Positions 18,686 to 31,714 of a stretch of 32,258 bases of DNA are shown in pieces. Every line of letters starts with the position of its first letter. The first letter of the stretch is position 1. The position numbers and the translations under genes were made by a program. Origin of the DNA: a virus. The notes under the pieces were generated by a model, which had not been told where the DNA came from, made no database searches, and was given only the letters and a program-made list of their open reading frames with translations. The stretch spans positions 1 to 32,258 of IMG/VR virus record IMGVR_UViG_3300020442_003628, one strand, 5' to 3'.

Positions 18686-18732
18686 GGAAATGTGTTTGTT
18701 TGACAGTTGCCTTAAAGGCATTGAGAACTAAA

Positions 18733-18748
18733 GCCGCTGTTAAGCGGC
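18733..18748 (-). terminator. GCCGCT-GTTA-AGCGGC hairpin
   Basis: A 6-bp perfect stem with a 4-nt loop, followed on the minus strand by TTT. It separates the 18756 gene from the 18041-18685 gene and is identical in stem and loop to copies at 24831, 29193 and 31056. Confidence 0.7.
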
Positions 18749-22633: not shown

Positions 22634-22798
22634 TTACTCAAATTGTTGCGCTGGAGTAGAGAATTCAATAGCTTTTAGATCCCAGTCAGAAAACAATTCA
22701 TCAGCTTTGACAGCTCTAATTTGTTTACGTTCTTTGCGCATTTTGGAAAGCTTGTCGAGAAAGCCTTTTGTTTGCTCGTTTCTAATAGTCTTACTCAT
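22634..22798 (-). CDS. Hypothetical basic protein, 54 aa
   Basis: MSKTIRNEQTKGFLDKLSKM then RKERKQIRAVKADELFSDWDLKAIEF. A Lys/Arg-rich helix with a short C-terminal domain. GGAGGAC a few bases before the ATG is one of the few good Shine-Dalgarno sites in the window. A strong terminator isolates it from the RlpA-like gene. No family is recognised. Confidence 0.7.
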   Translation of the reverse strand: MSKTIRNEQTKGFLDKLSKMRKERKQIRAVKADELFSDWDLKAIEFSTPAQQFE

Positions 22799-24781: not shown

Positions 24782-24830
24782 GATTTATGCATGTATACAA
24801 CACTCTCTTTTGAGAGCAAGGAACTTGAAA

Positions 24831-24846
24831 GCCGCTGTTAAGCGGC
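24831..24846 (-). terminator. GCCGCT-GTTA-AGCGGC hairpin
   Basis: Identical in stem and loop to the copies at 18733, 29193 and 31056. On the minus strand it is followed by TTTCAAGTTCC and lies 49 nt before the DUF932 start. Confidence 0.7.
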
Positions 24847-27127: not shown

Positions 27128-27159
27128 AGGAAATAGTTGAAAGGACAGTATTAACGAAA

Positions 27160-27175
27160 GGCGCTAATAAGCGCC
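27160..27175 (-). terminator. GGCGC-TAATAA-GCGCC hairpin in the divergent gap
   Basis: A 5-bp GC stem of the same family as the 29-31 kb hairpins. On the minus strand TTTCGTTAAT follows. It would stop minus-strand transcripts running antisense through the 27248 gene before the 26900 gene. Confidence 0.55.
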
Positions 27176-28606: not shown

Positions 28607-28631
28607 AGTTTAGGAGAAAAGAAAAATCCCA

Positions 28632-28648
28632 GCCGTGGAATACACGGC
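28632..28648 (-). terminator. Intrinsic terminator after the SSB gene
   Basis: A GCCGTG-GAATA-CACGGC stem is followed on the minus strand by GGGATTTTTCTTTT. It lies 13 bp past the SSB stop. Confidence 0.8.
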
Positions 28649-28660
28649 CAGGAATTTGAT

Positions 28661-29158
28661 TCAATAGAGAGCAAGCTCTTCCTCTTGCTCCGCATCTGCA
28701 CTGTAGGCAGGAGTGTCATCAACAGGAGGCAGATCCTCATCAGGAGTGCCGACCTGAGTGACAACAGTGCCTGCAACAGCGCGGACGTTGTTCTCAGCCT
28801 TAGGCATAGGTCCAAGGCCACCGTCGAGGACAGTTACTCCAACGAGGCTGATCTCGGGACGCTTGCGCATACGCACTTGGCCAGACTTGTCGGTGTAGAC
28901 CTCACTGACATTCTTGATGTGACCAGTGATAGTCACCTGACGGCCTTTGCCAAAATAGCCCTTCTCGTGAAGGCCCATAAGGCCATTGTTGTTGGTGAAG
29001 TTGTACACCAAGTCTGCGCCATCAGTGGTAGCAGTGCTGATAACGGATACAGCCAAAAACTGGCTGCCGTCAGCTTGCGTCACGATCTCAGCGTTGAAGA
29101 TACGTCCAGTGACGGTGAGAGCGTTGAACTGAGCGTAGCGAGTTTGAGTGTTGTTCAA
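28661..29158 (-). CDS. OB-fold single-stranded DNA-binding protein
   Basis: A 165-aa protein beginning with TTG at 29158; no ATG exists before residue 60, and the OB fold begins at once. FNALTVTGRIFNAEIVTQADGSQF, then FLAVSVISTA, GRQVTITGHIKNVSEVYTDKSGQ and RPEISLVGVTVL follow the SSB/OB strand order. The tail (from about 120) is Pro/Asp/Glu-rich and ends EEELALY. It binds ssDNA during replication or recombination. It is distinct from the tandem-OB protein at 10944 and lies in the small-gene block with a GCCGCT hairpin 34 nt before its start. Confidence 0.75.
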   Translation of the reverse strand: MNNTQTRYAQFNALTVTGRIFNAEIVTQADGSQFLAVSVISTATTDGADLVYNFTNNNGLMGLHEKGYFGKGRQVTITGHIKNVSEVYTDKSGQVRMRKRPEISLVGVTVLDGGLGPMPKAENNVRAVAGTVVTQVGTPDEDLPPVDDTPAYSADAEQEEELALY

Positions 29159-29192
29159 AGTGAAACTTTGATAAAGAACATGAAAAAGGAAA

Positions 29193-29208
29193 GCCGCTGT
29201 TAAGCGGC
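29193..29208 (-). terminator. Hairpin-leader element 1 (GCCGCT-GTTA-AGCGGC)
   Basis: A 6-bp stem, 4-nt loop, then TTTCCTTTTTCATGTTC on the minus strand, ending 34 nt before the TTG start of the SSB gene and 8 bp after the preceding stop. Confidence 0.75.
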
Positions 29209-29215
29209 AGAGTTT

Positions 29216-29587
29216 CTAGTGGAGACCACCACAAGAAGTACACATAGGGTCATCAGGACCACATTCAATAGTCTGAAGAATGTTCATAATTGCTTGGAAC
29301 TTTCCAGCATCTTTGAGCCATGCTCCAGCTGGTCCATCACCTTCCTCATATACACGTTCAGCTACACGCTCGTGAAACTGAATCATGCGATCAATGATGC
29401 AAGCCATCATAAGCTTATGGACAATCATTGGGTTGTCCGAGCTAGAGGATGCACGCCGAATCCAATATTCAGCTTGATCGAACAGATCTTCAGGAAGCTC
29501 AACTGAGTCTTCTTCAATTGCATTCTGTAGATGCTCTTCAAGCGCCTCAGGTGAGATGCTGTCGGGGATGTTGAATGATTGAGTCAT
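29216..29587 (-). CDS. Hypothetical helical protein with C-terminal CxxC, 123 aa
   Basis: MTQSFNIPDSISPEALEEHL is followed by helices including AEYWIRRASSSSDNPMIVHKLMMACIIDRMIQFH. The C-terminus ends ECGPDDPMCTSCGGLH, a CxxC pair with a third Cys that could bind zinc. No family is recognised. It is bracketed by hairpin elements. Confidence 0.65.
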   Translation of the reverse strand: MTQSFNIPDSISPEALEEHLQNAIEEDSVELPEDLFDQAEYWIRRASSSSDNPMIVHKLMMACIIDRMIQFHERVAERVYEEGDGPAGAWLKDAGKFQAIMNILQTIECGPDDPMCTSCGGLH

Positions 29588-29617
29588 ATAGATCTCGAAT
29601 TTACAAAAAGAACGAAA

Positions 29618-29633
29618 CCCGCTGTTAAGCGGG
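29618..29633 (-). terminator. Hairpin-leader element 2 (CCCGCT-GTTA-AGCGGG)
   Basis: A compensatory change relative to the other copies (GCCGCT/AGCGGC becomes CCCGCT/AGCGGG) keeps the stem intact. It is followed by TTTCGTTCTTTTTG on the minus strand, 30 nt before the next ATG. Confidence 0.75.
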
Positions 29634-29646
29634 AAAGGTGGTTAAC

Positions 29647-29856
29647 TCAAGCGATATTGCAGCACATATGTGCGTGGCCTGCATCGGAGATGAAGTCACC
29701 GATACGGTCTTGGAACAGAGCCGTAGAACCATCTGAAAAGATGGTGTATTCGGTTTCATCTACGAGATAGCAGAACGCATCTTCGTTCTGAGGAACCACC
29801 TGTGATAGTCCAGGAATGTTGCTTGCAACAATCTGGAAGTCATAGGTGATTGCCAT
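29647..29856 (-). CDS. Hypothetical protein, 69 aa
   Basis: MAITYDFQIVASNIPGLSQV then VPQNEDAFCYLVDETEYTIFSDGSTALFQD and GHAHMCCNIA. Beta-rich, with a C-terminal HMCC cluster. No family is recognised. Confidence 0.6.
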   Translation of the reverse strand: MAITYDFQIVASNIPGLSQVVPQNEDAFCYLVDETEYTIFSDGSTALFQDRIGDFISDAGHAHMCCNIA

Positions 29857-29889
29857 ACAGCATTCAGAAAAAGAACACTAAAAAAGAAA

Positions 29890-29905
29890 GGCGCAGTTAA
29901 GCGCC
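29890..29905 (-). terminator. Hairpin-leader element 3 (GGCGC/GCGCC)
   Basis: GGCGC-AGTTAA-GCGCC followed by TTTCTTTTTTAGTGTTC on the minus strand, 33 nt before the next ATG. It lies 11 bp after the preceding stop. Confidence 0.75.
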
Positions 29906-29916
29906 CTTGTGTGTTC

Positions 29917-30048
29917 TCAACCGATCACGGTTGTTCTACCTGCCCTACGCAGGTAAAGCATATCCCTCATCATCTCTTTGGTTTGACGGATATACTCTTC
30001 ACGAGTGCGCTTTGCAGCACGAACTTGAAGATCTGTCATAGTGATCAT
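29917..30048 (-). CDS. Small basic protein, 43 aa
   Basis: MITMTDLQVRAAKRTREEYI followed by RQTKEMMRDMLYLRRAGRT. A single amphipathic, Arg-rich helix, perhaps nucleic-acid- or membrane-surface-binding. The second Met (30039) is an alternative start. Hairpins flank it on both sides. Confidence 0.6.
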   Translation of the reverse strand: MITMTDLQVRAAKRTREEYIRQTKEMMRDMLYLRRAGRTTVIG

Positions 30049-30069
30049 GTAATGGACACTAAAAACTAA

Positions 30070-30087
30070 AGCCGCTAGTCAGCGGCT
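30070..30087 (-). terminator. Hairpin-leader element 4 (AGCCGCT-AGTC-AGCGGCT)
   Basis: A 7-bp stem. The stop codon TAG (30086-30088) of the preceding gene lies in the outer stem. TTTAGTTTTTAGTGTCC follows, and the next ATG is 22 nt away. Confidence 0.75.
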
Positions 30088-30211
30088 ATTGCTCATCAGA
30101 GCAAATGTCAGTGGTCTCTGTACTAGACAGAGGTGGTAGGAGGCATATGCCGATAGATCTTGCATCTGCATTGAAGTAGAGAGCAAGGAAGAAATAAAGA
30201 ACTAGCTTCAT
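30086..30211 (-). CDS. Small secreted or membrane-tethered peptide, 41 aa
   Basis: MKLVLYFFLALYFNADARSI is a short signal-like hydrophobic N-terminus with a plausible ADA|R cleavage site. The mature part is about 24 residues with two Cys (GICLLPPLSS... DICSDEQ) that could form a disulfide in the periplasm. The ATG overlaps the HAD gene stop (ATGA), so it is coupled. The function is unknown. Confidence 0.55.
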   Translation of the reverse strand: MKLVLYFFLALYFNADARSIGICLLPPLSSTETTDICSDEQ

Positions 30212-30729
30212 CAAACCTTGACCACTACTTCTGGATGGGCATCCCAGTACTCGCAATTCTTGAGTACATGGATGCGTTTAATCCGTTGAAGGCGAGCGCC
30301 TTCTATGTTGTAGGGACTGTCATCAATGAGAGTACCCACCATCCGATAGCTTTTGCGAAGATACTTCAGCATGTGCTGCTTCGTATTACCGCTGCTATCT
30401 ACGCCAGTAGACACAAGGATGACATCAAATGGGATATTCCACTTGCGAAGCCAGTTGAATGATTCAGTGAGCCGATCGGACGGACGAGCCGTACAGATAG
30501 CAATCGAATCGCCCCATCGATGCATCATGCGTAATAGATCCACAATGCGGTTATCAGGAGCGAATGCTCTGGATGCATCAAAGAAGTCATCTTTGGACAT
30601 ATCACGGTTGTTAAAGCCATCAGGCTTTTGAGTGATAGTGTCGTCCAGATCAAAAGCATGCACAATCCGCCCTTTGTGCGGCTGTACACGCTGAATACCG
30701 ACAAAGTGGGATTGAGCTATACCTTTCAT
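30211..30729 (-). CDS. HAD-superfamily phosphatase (polynucleotide 3'-phosphatase-like)
   Basis: A 172-aa protein with all HAD motifs: FDLDDT (nucleophile D27, D29), AICTARPSD (motif II T80), a Lys region near 117-126, and GTLIDDSPYN (D136, D137). The arrangement resembles the phosphatase half of T4 polynucleotide kinase/phosphatase or phage 5'-nucleotidases. The kinase domain is absent. Substrates could be 3'-phosphate RNA/DNA ends or nucleotides. The N-terminal 22 residues are an extension. It is coupled to the 41-aa peptide gene. Confidence 0.82.
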   Translation of the reverse strand: MKGIAQSHFVGIQRVQPHKGRIVHAFDLDDTITQKPDGFNNRDMSKDDFFDASRAFAPDNRIVDLLRMMHRWGDSIAICTARPSDRLTESFNWLRKWNIPFDVILVSTGVDSSGNTKQHMLKYLRKSYRMVGTLIDDSPYNIEGARLQRIKRIHVLKNCEYWDAHPEVVVKV

Positions 30730-30757
30730 GTAATCTTCAAAGAGTACAAGAAAGAAA

Positions 30758-30775
30758 AGGCGCTGTTAAGCGCCT
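30758..30775 (-). terminator. Hairpin-leader element 5 (AGGCGCT-GTTA-AGCGCCT)
   Basis: A 7-bp stem with a covarying pair compared with element 1, followed by TTTCTTTCTTGTACTC on the minus strand. The next ATG is 28 nt away; the preceding stop is 7 bp away. Confidence 0.75.
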
Positions 30776-30781
30776 AAAGGT

Positions 30782-31024
30782 TCAAACTTTGGCTAACCAG
30801 CAGCCAAGGTCGTGTAGTTTCTCACCAGTTACGGCAAGGACCAGCCCAACATTGTTGAGGCCACCCTTGCAACGCATACCGACTTCTTGCCAATCCACCT
30901 GCTTGATCCAGACAATGGTGTCTGTCACAGGTGGGAAGGCTTTGTAGTCGCTTTCCACACTTTGCTCGATAGCTCTTGGCAGAGGCATCTCGGCAAGGAT
31001 GTCTTTGGTGGAAATTAAAGTCAT
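30782..31024 (-). CDS. Hypothetical protein, 80 aa
   Basis: MTLISTKDILAEMPLPRAIE then VTDTIVWIKQVDWQEVGMRCKGGLNNVGLVLAV. A small alpha/beta domain with two Cys. No family is recognised. Flanked by hairpin elements. Confidence 0.6.
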   Translation of the reverse strand: MTLISTKDILAEMPLPRAIEQSVESDYKAFPPVTDTIVWIKQVDWQEVGMRCKGGLNNVGLVLAVTGEKLHDLGCWLAKV

Positions 31025-31055
31025 GACTATCAGTCAAAGGACATATAAAAAGAAA

Positions 31056-31071
31056 GCCGCTGTTAAGCGGC
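31056..31071 (-). terminator. Hairpin-leader element 6 (GCCGCT-GTTA-AGCGGC)
   Basis: Identical to element 1. TTTCTTTTTATATGTCC follows on the minus strand, and the next ATG is 31 nt away. It starts 7 bp after the preceding stop. Confidence 0.75.
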
Positions 31072-31077
31072 AATGGT

Positions 31078-31188
31078 TCAACGCAGAGGTCTGCGCTTGA
31101 ATGCAGTGGTCACAATCACGCCAGTAGACAGGAGACCTATCATGCCGATGATTGCTGTGATAATGGTCTGTTGATCGTAAGTAATCAT
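31078..31188 (-). CDS. One-helix membrane peptide, 36 aa
   Basis: MITYDQQTIITAIIGMIGLL then STGVIVTTAFKRRPLR: a single transmembrane helix with a basic C-terminus. This suggests N-out/C-in topology in the inner or thylakoid membrane. Size and shape fit a holin-like or protein-modulating peptide. It has no Shine-Dalgarno. No homologue is recognised. Confidence 0.6.
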   Translation of the reverse strand: MITYDQQTIITAIIGMIGLLSTGVIVTTAFKRRPLR

Positions 31189-31193
31189 CTATA

Positions 31194-31358
31194 TCAGTCA
31201 GCGATGTGTGCAGCGAGCAGTGCTTCGATTAGACGCAGCTCGTTCACACGAGTGGGTGCTGTCTTTGGATCAGCGGTGAACTGTTCTGTTTCGCGTGCGA
31301 TAACGTCATGAACAGCTTTCACCTGTGTTTTGTCTAGAGATAGCTTTAGATCTGCCAT
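31194..31358 (-). CDS. Hypothetical protein, 54 aa
   Basis: MADLKLSLDKTQVKAVHDVI then ARETEQFTADPKTAPTRVNELRLIEALLAAH. Two helices joined by a Pro loop. No family is recognised. It is 5 bp upstream of the membrane-peptide start, so the pair is likely co-translated. Confidence 0.6.
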   Translation of the reverse strand: MADLKLSLDKTQVKAVHDVIARETEQFTADPKTAPTRVNELRLIEALLAAHIAD

Positions 31359-31393
31359 TGCTTGTTTCTATATATGGACCGTTTATTACTAAA

Positions 31394-31409
31394 GCCGCAG
31401 CTATGCGGC
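31394..31409 (-). terminator. Hairpin-leader element 7 (GCCGC-AGCTAT-GCGGC)
   Basis: The stop codon TAG (31401-31403) of the coiled-coil gene lies in the loop. TTTAGTAATAAACGGTCC follows on the minus strand, and the next ATG is 35 nt away. Confidence 0.75.
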
Positions 31410-31649
31410 CTTAATTTGATCAGTCGCCTTCTCAACGTCTTTCTGAAGTTCAGCGACGTGAGCTTCTAAACGTTCGATGGAAGACTTATGACTATCGATC
31501 AGTTTATTGAGCTCATCAATCTCGGATTGAGTTTGCTCTAGTTTATAGGCGGCCAACTGTGAGTCTGAAATGACGTATACAGATGGACGCTGATGTGTGA
31601 TCCAAGGATCAAAGGGAGATTGCATGTTATATAGGTTTAGAAAGCTCAT
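31401..31649 (-). CDS. Coiled-coil protein, 82 aa
   Basis: After MSFLNLYNMQSPFDPWITHQ the chain becomes a continuous coiled coil (EQTQSEIDELNKLIDSHKS, IERLEAHVAELQKDVEKAT). ATG at 31649 or 31625 may start it. It probably forms a dimer or trimer. The role is unknown. A large bulged stem-loop lies 12 nt before the first ATG. Confidence 0.65.
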   Translation of the reverse strand: MSFLNLYNMQSPFDPWITHQRPSVYVISDSQLAAYKLEQTQSEIDELNKLIDSHKSSIERLEAHVAELQKDVEKATDQIKAA

Positions 31650-31661
31650 TGCTCATTTATA

Positions 31662-31714
31662 TATACCGACCCTATTAATTTACTCGCTAAGTATCTAATA
31701 GGGCAATCGGTATA
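31662..31714 (-). promoter_or_regulatory. Large bulged RNA stem-loop upstream of the coiled-coil gene
   Basis: TATACCGA+CCCTATTA pairs perfectly with TAATAGGG+TCGGTATA; only a 3-nt CAA bulge (31704-31706) interrupts 16 bp, around an 18-nt loop. It is the longest perfect stem in the window. It resembles an RNase III-type processing site or protein-binding leader more than a terminator, since no U tract follows. Confidence 0.6.

Follow-up and report, generated by a model that had tools for sequence, protein, structure and literature searches.

A covarying hairpin leader with a fixed downstream word ahead of small genes in a clade of uncultured marine cyanophages

What does a short hairpin leader do when it stands ahead of one small phage gene after another? 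The question is raised by a stretch of 32,258 nucleotides (nt) from IMG/VR record IMGVR_UViG_3300020442_003628, hereafter the window, which is part of the genome of an uncultured marine cyanophage that carries psbA. An earlier note on this DNA had described seven GC hairpins between consecutive small genes at 28632-31714. All seven were found, all on the minus strand (31409-31394, 31071-31056, 30774-30759, 30086-30071, 29905-29890, 29633-29618 and 29208-29193), and their usual loop on the transcribed strand is TAAC. They lie near or over the preceding stops, as had been claimed: TAG 31403-31401 and TAG 30088-30086 overlap their hairpins, and the other stops end 6-13 nt before the hairpin. The start codons follow, in the same hairpin order, after 35, 31, 29, 31 (22 with an earlier in-frame ATG), 33, 30 and 34 nt. 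The hairpin with its leader is called a cassette below.

The conserved unit extends beyond the hairpin. In 20 contigs of one clade, it consists of a 6-base-pair (bp) hairpin, a 12-nt T-rich linker (TTTNTTT..), the 8-letter word TGTNCTTT, about 11 nt and an ATG. All contigs compared are fragments of uncultured viruses, and start codons were deduced from open frames. Among 2,758 hairpins in 21 records, TGTNCTTT lay exactly 12 nt past the stem in 130 cases, against approximately 7 at any other offset, and in the first contig set the word was at offset 12 in 80 cases against approximately 3 at other offsets, with orthologous copies included in these counts; a related selection held 99 unique copies after removal of near-duplicates. 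Of 77 TGTYC cassettes, 53 had their start codon 30-34 nt past the stem, and few had it nearer. A covariance model (R1) built from 15 window-clade copies gave approximately 85 matches at E < 0.01 in more divergent contigs, and the hairpin-to-start spacing recurs in relatives, as the earlier note had anticipated. Synechococcus phage S-EIV1, the sole cultured relative compared in full, had no hairpin with TGTNCTTT at offset 12 and one R1 match, at E = 0.17. The word at its fixed 12-nt distance, which the earlier note had overlooked, is the strongest clue to the mechanism. The element is solid and clade-wide, while its mechanism is what we infer below. The cassette looks like an undescribed gene-control element; no description of it was found in the literature searched, which left out many subscription papers.

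The hairpin is conserved as a structure. When sites were picked by the linker T's and the word alone, a fully paired 6/6 stem preceded 74 of 99, compared with 6 of 495 shifted control windows. The 44 unique sites have 26 different 5' arms, and arm swapping left a mean of only 3.2 paired positions. Each of the six pairs varies in both arms; doubly changed cells numbered 76, where shuffles gave 23.9. The covariation score was 0.744, compared with 0.204 for shuffles and no more than 0.165 for slid controls, which bears out the proposal that the structure is selected. Hairpins are alike within a contig and unlike between contigs (GCCGCTTAACAGCGGC in the window, GCCCCCTCCGGGGGC in G006, GCCGG(C/T)TAAC(G/A)CCGGC in G007 and G010). 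In contig G017, TTTATTTCACTGTGTTC(T/A)TT is common to six copies behind five different, fully compensated hairpins, one of which is used twice. Two further pairings were rejected. A second hairpin at the start codon, conspicuous on inspection, had a mean z of -0.24 (p 0.16, 49 canonical leaders) and is regular only in the type-B form (TGCCC..GGGC), and an outer stem GAACAC/GTGTTC occurs in some copies only (own pairing 3.94, swapped 3.80).

The linker consensus over the 99 unique copies is TTTATTTCNYNG (T98 T74 T95 A58 T65 T70 T63, in %), for which the selection ignored linker positions 1-12. The word that follows reads TG(T/C)(T/C)C and then T73 T77 T76 A51, with the consensus TGTTCTTTA; its positions 13, 14 and 17 (TG..C) were fixed by the selection. 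At linker position 4, T is found in only 22% of copies and A in 58%, whereas T reaches 63-95% at positions 3 and 5-7. This fourth base is mostly C in the window's group, mostly A in many other contigs, and often T in G007, G014 and G016.

Within the window, model R1 picked up eight copies that are full or nearly so, besides some matches to the hairpin only. The sites are as follows, with bit scores from R1.

31388-31409, minus strand: degenerate cassette, GCCGCA-TAGC-TGCGGC enclosing a stop, without a conserved word; ATG 31358; 14.9 bits, hairpin part only.
31036-31071, minus strand: cassette, GCCGCT-TAAC-AGCGGC (31071-31056), 12-nt linker TTTCTTTTTATA, TGTCCTTT; ATG 31024; 47.7 bits.
30739-30774, minus strand: cassette, GGCGCT-TAAC-AGCGCC, TTTTCTTTCT, variant TGTACTCTTTGAAG with the word 2 nt early; ATG 30729; 33.4 bits.
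30051-30086, minus strand: cassette, GCCGCT-GACT-AGCGGC, TTTAGTTTTTAG, TGTCCATT; likely ATG 30039; 35.0 bits.
29870-29905, minus strand: cassette, GGCGC-TTAACT-GCGCC, TTTCTTTTTTAG, TGTTCTTT; ATG 29856; 50.7 bits, fold z -3.78.
29603-29633, minus strand: cassette with a weak word, CCCGCT-TAAC-AGCGGG, TTTCGTTCTTTT, TGTAAATT; ATG 29587; 27.9 bits.
29173-29208, minus strand: cassette, GCCGCT-TAAC-AGCGGC, TTTCCTTTTTCA, TGTTCTTT; TTG 29158, start of the last gene ahead of the probable true terminator; 48.5 bits.
28627-28653, minus strand: not a cassette; 11-bp hairpin, then TTTTTCTTTT, a long T-run, without TGTNCTTT; fold z -4.81.
27140-27175, minus strand: cassette outside 28632-31714, GGCGCT-TATT-AGCGCC, TTTCGTTAATAC, TGTCCTTT; ATG 27127; 46.4 bits.
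24827-24846, minus strand: type-B-like cassette, GCCGCTTAACAGCGGC, 12 nt, TGCTCTCAAAAGAGAG, before a DUF932-like gene; 20 bits.
18714-18748, minus strand: type-B cassette, hairpin, 12 nt, second hairpin TGCCTTTAAGGCA, longer leader, before gene 18721-18041; 34.6 bits.
3727: hairpin-only match outside 28632-31714.

The interval 28632-31714 had been described as a row of stereotyped cassettes. This is true of most of it, but the 31409 copy is degenerate and the end hairpin 28653-28627 is of another kind, probably the true terminator of the array. The locus in G004 similar to the degenerate copy carries TGTTCAAT. The gene behind the 30774 cassette encodes a HAD/polynucleotide-kinase-like protein. 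The stem of the 30086 cassette is compensated to GCCGCC/GGCGGC in G001; its likelier start is 30039 rather than the first ATG, 30048, because relatives G004 and G005 keep only the ATG at +31, and the spacing rule likewise points to 30039. The 29905 cassette has the outer GAACAC/GTGTTC pairing. Type-B cassettes have TGCCC..GGGC or similar in place of the word, forming a second hairpin, and a longer leader, before orthologues of window gene 18721-18041 (window 18748, minus strand; G004 30124, G006 31662, G008 31038, G009 10361, G012 73209, G013 43236). A long stem of a different kind, TATACCGA..CCCTATTA / TAATAGGG.TCGGTATA, lies at 31720-31655 (minus strand), upstream of gene 31649-31401.

As to mechanism, we tentatively favour a co-transcriptional leader that acts on the host elongation complex in the manner of the Nus factors at rrn leaders. 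boxA is the site of NusB-S10 in rRNA and lambda antitermination. Its consensus is GYTCTTTAANA (PMC5725501), and TGTTCTTTA matches the GYTCTTTA part only. The hairpin precedes boxA in rrn leaders, the reverse of lambda nut (PMC6614801), and in the cassette too the hairpin lies upstream of the boxA-like word. Many picocyanobacterial rrn leaders have a hairpin and, 26-32 nt later, TGCACTCTTTGAAC or a close form, and TGCACTCTTTGAAC is close to TGTACTCTTTGAAG of the 30774 cassette. In NusG-dependent pausing, the hairpin lies 11-12 nt upstream of the 3' end, with -11TTNTTT-6 (PMC12288461). The cassette hairpin and TTNTTT fall in this register, TTNTTT (at least 4 of 5 T) being best at linker register 2 in 58 of 99 copies.

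The cassette would then be a cis-acting RNA leader element of one marine cyanophage clade. Its structure, word, spacing, recurrence across the clade and starts without a Shine-Dalgarno sequence are shown: the 6-bp hairpin lies just past the preceding stop, followed at fixed distance by the linker TTTNTTT, broken at its fourth base, by UGUNCUUU and, 31-34 nt from the hairpin in most copies, by the start codon. The array may be transcribed through as a longer transcript, and the hairpin and T-tract of each cassette may slow or engage the host RNA polymerase during transcription. The word resembling boxA could recruit Nus factors, the polymerase would get past the next weak hairpin, and translation would begin just downstream. 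Each cassette would thus act like a miniature rrn-type utilisation site (hairpin, then boxA), repeated ahead of each gene. More broadly, it is possible, and we put it no higher, that the hairpin with its UGUNCUUU leader is an undescribed class of phage RNA element through which one trans-acting factor, a host Nus complex or a phage protein, sets the expression of a small-gene arsenal; the hairpin would coevolve per genome while the linker and word stay fixed.

Several points weigh against a Nus-type leader. The likeness to boxA is a match to a 9-letter consensus and was noticed after the motif had been found. Comparison with the host gave a mixed picture: beside the likeness to rrn leaders, its 16S-23S spacers have another boxA-like string, GAACCTTGA, in 27 of 27 cases. 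The motif-reading pair of picocyanobacterial NusG, also compared after the motif had been seen, is S-T in 35 of the 36 loci read, with N-T at the Synechocystis locus, whereas it is N-T in the pro-pausing NusG of B. subtilis and S-V in that of E. coli. No NusB gene was found in the phages. Cyanobacteria are not known to have Rho, and antitermination would therefore have to act on intrinsic terminators. The known systems also differ from the cassette in layout. The rrn signal (boxB hairpin, boxA, boxC) and lambda nut share with it a hairpin and a boxA-like UGYYCUUUA word, in rrn order, but the cassette is repeated before many small genes with a start codon approximately 11 nt downstream, and neither a boxC nor a phage N-like protein was identified for it. 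With the B. subtilis NusG-dependent pause, the cassette shares a hairpin placed 12 nt ahead of the inferred 3' end and TTNTTT at -11 to -6, but the conserved downstream word is foreign to known pause sites. The suhB-type leader likewise has boxA within tens of nt of the start codon; however, suhB has one boxA near a Shine-Dalgarno (SD) sequence and uses Rho, and the cassettes form arrays with a hairpin and no SD.

The tight position of the word relative to the ATG fits a role in translation at least as well. Because a translation leader is equally suited by this distance, we hold the Nus-type leader only tentatively and regard a translation leader as conceivable, if somewhat unlikely. The hairpin would shield the start region against the gene upstream, and UGUNCUUU, located approximately at -19 to -12, would be an SD-independent ribosome landing site in an A/U-rich, G-poor 5' untranslated region. 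The clustering of start codons at 30-34 nt from the stem agrees with this. None of the seven leaders has an SD, as the earlier note had stated, and SD-like tetramers occur in 4 of 82 leaders, below the random rate of approximately 0.16. GGAGG does precede the polymerase starts (2305 and 2073-2072) and also a start near 22797. G is rare in the last 17 nt ahead of the start. Non-SD genes of cyanobacteria are biased to U around -25 and to C immediately ahead of the start (PMC5397173). According to the same survey, S1, which the earlier note had suggested, may not act in cyanobacterial initiation. No S21 gene was found in the phages, some copies (type B) start much later, and a perfect hairpin exactly 12 nt before the word is left unexplained.

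Weak intrinsic terminators at gene ends, with graded read-through and with the word as the downstream part of a termination or pause signal, are an unlikely explanation. As in intrinsic terminators, a GC-rich stem just past the stop is followed by TTT and T-rich DNA, and the cassettes were scored terminator-like; such sites in 20-32.3 kb numbered 36, against 9.8 in shuffles. NusA and NusG assist terminators with an interrupted U-tract in B. subtilis (PMC8060035). The leaky terminators of the earlier note stand to the extent that the cassette U-tract is interrupted, with a longest T-run of 3 in 58 of 99 copies and the T shortage at position 4. However, a continuous U-tract of approximately 7-8 right after the stem was not found, although some window copies come closer to one. 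U-tract strength nT was 3.15 in cassettes, well below the 4.95-5.71 of strong terminators in the same phages. The T shortage at position 4, in contrast to the unbroken T-runs of the true terminators of these genomes, argues for avoidance of strong termination. Moreover, known intrinsic terminators need no TGTNCTTT at +13, and no promoter lies behind the cassette hairpins.

Intercistronic processing, in which host RNase E would bind the hairpin and cut the linker so that each gene gets its own 5' and 3' ends, is improbable. The Synechocystis enzyme attaches to a short hairpin and cleaves an AU-rich stretch directly behind it (PMC10989929), and the cassette has this arrangement, with the frequent A at linker position 4. 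But linkers have less of the cyanobacterial clamp (A at -3/-4, U at +2) than shuffles do (0.41 against 0.64), which counts against the processing suggested earlier, and RNase E needs neither the fixed 12 nt nor TGTNCTTT.

A promoter or DNA-level element (a new promoter class, an operator or the recombination hairpin of a gene-cassette array) is very improbable: there is one copy per gene, and hairpins are similar within a genome and different between genomes, but the arms covary base by base, unlike a bound operator, and no conserved -10 is present (A at -11 in 18 of 50 and T at -7 in 15 of 50 start-aligned leaders). No -10 was seen on the minus strand of 28.6-31.7 kb either, and the lack of a -10 box makes a promoter per gene unlikely. 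Sigma-70 and leaderless promoters were rejected on the 50 leaders, in line with the earlier view that there is no room for a promoter; sigma-70 promoter sequence is absent from them. Similarity blocks begin within 15 nt of hairpins in 10.8% of cases against 3.5% at random, but this excess is expected because all cassettes resemble each other; recombination at hairpins was thus rejected, and the 3' ends of the blocks are not enriched. For a T7-type RNA polymerase (N4-type hairpin promoter), PF00940 had no match in four contigs, and the control likewise gave none.

In layout, the SAS/ESAS system of Cluster K mycobacteriophages comes closest, but the cassette does not belong to it. SAS is a 13-bp GGGATAGGAGCCC with an SD, 3-7 bp from the start (PMC3203893). 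In both cases, a short conserved element stands at many non-structural gene starts, one per gene, in a single phage clade, and approximately half of the SAS have an upstream inverted repeat whose sequence varies between subclusters. The SAS repeats do not covary as RNA, whereas the cassette is SD-less, with a covarying hairpin and exact 12-nt spacing. An origin from the host was rejected, the pattern being about as rare as a mirror control in 61 picocyanobacterial genomes. A 50-nt consensus query against cultured phages, a weak method, gave only chance-level matches. Rfam 15 gave no RNA family above gathering score in the window except two tRNAs and a glutamine riboswitch. The riboswitch aptamer (RF01739, 50.1 bits) lies at 461-514 on the minus strand, with GGAGG at 447 ahead of a start codon.

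The window genes include psbA, transaldolase, ribonucleotide reductase, ThyX, a MazG-like protein, a polA-type DNA polymerase, a primase-helicase and two tRNAs. IMG/VR contigs of 35-81 kb are close relatives of its small-gene region, and its primase had more than 160 matching stretches in the collection. The portal-position protein of relative G001 had one match in the phage collection, S-EIV1 (49%). This protein, a sigma-70 factor, psbA and the primase are common to most cassette-bearing contigs, which indicates one marine clade distantly related to S-EIV1; its members are approximately 80 kb. In the 106-kb contig G004, the early part comes back, slightly altered, approximately 80.8 kb further on (14-20 kb and 95-106 kb), and the contig therefore probably wraps an approximately 81-kb genome. 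The sigma-70 factor of the relatives has regions 1.2, 2, 3 and 4 (L093, 13481-14428, minus strand, in the structural-gene half of G001). A conserved promoter-like string, TGTGCCTATAAT, stands directly after strong structural-region terminators (G001 9925, G004 74673 and G006 72501, minus strand; G005 8654, plus strand) and could be a late promoter read by the phage sigma factor.

The cassettes precede small, fast-changing genes, most of them unnamed, in a clade of uncultured ocean cyanophages. A stereotyped leader per gene gives a means to find such genes and their true starts. The leader is also a testable entry to phage gene expression in hosts where few genes have a Shine-Dalgarno sequence. 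If the word does act as boxA, the phage would be repeating an rRNA-type antitermination signal gene by gene.

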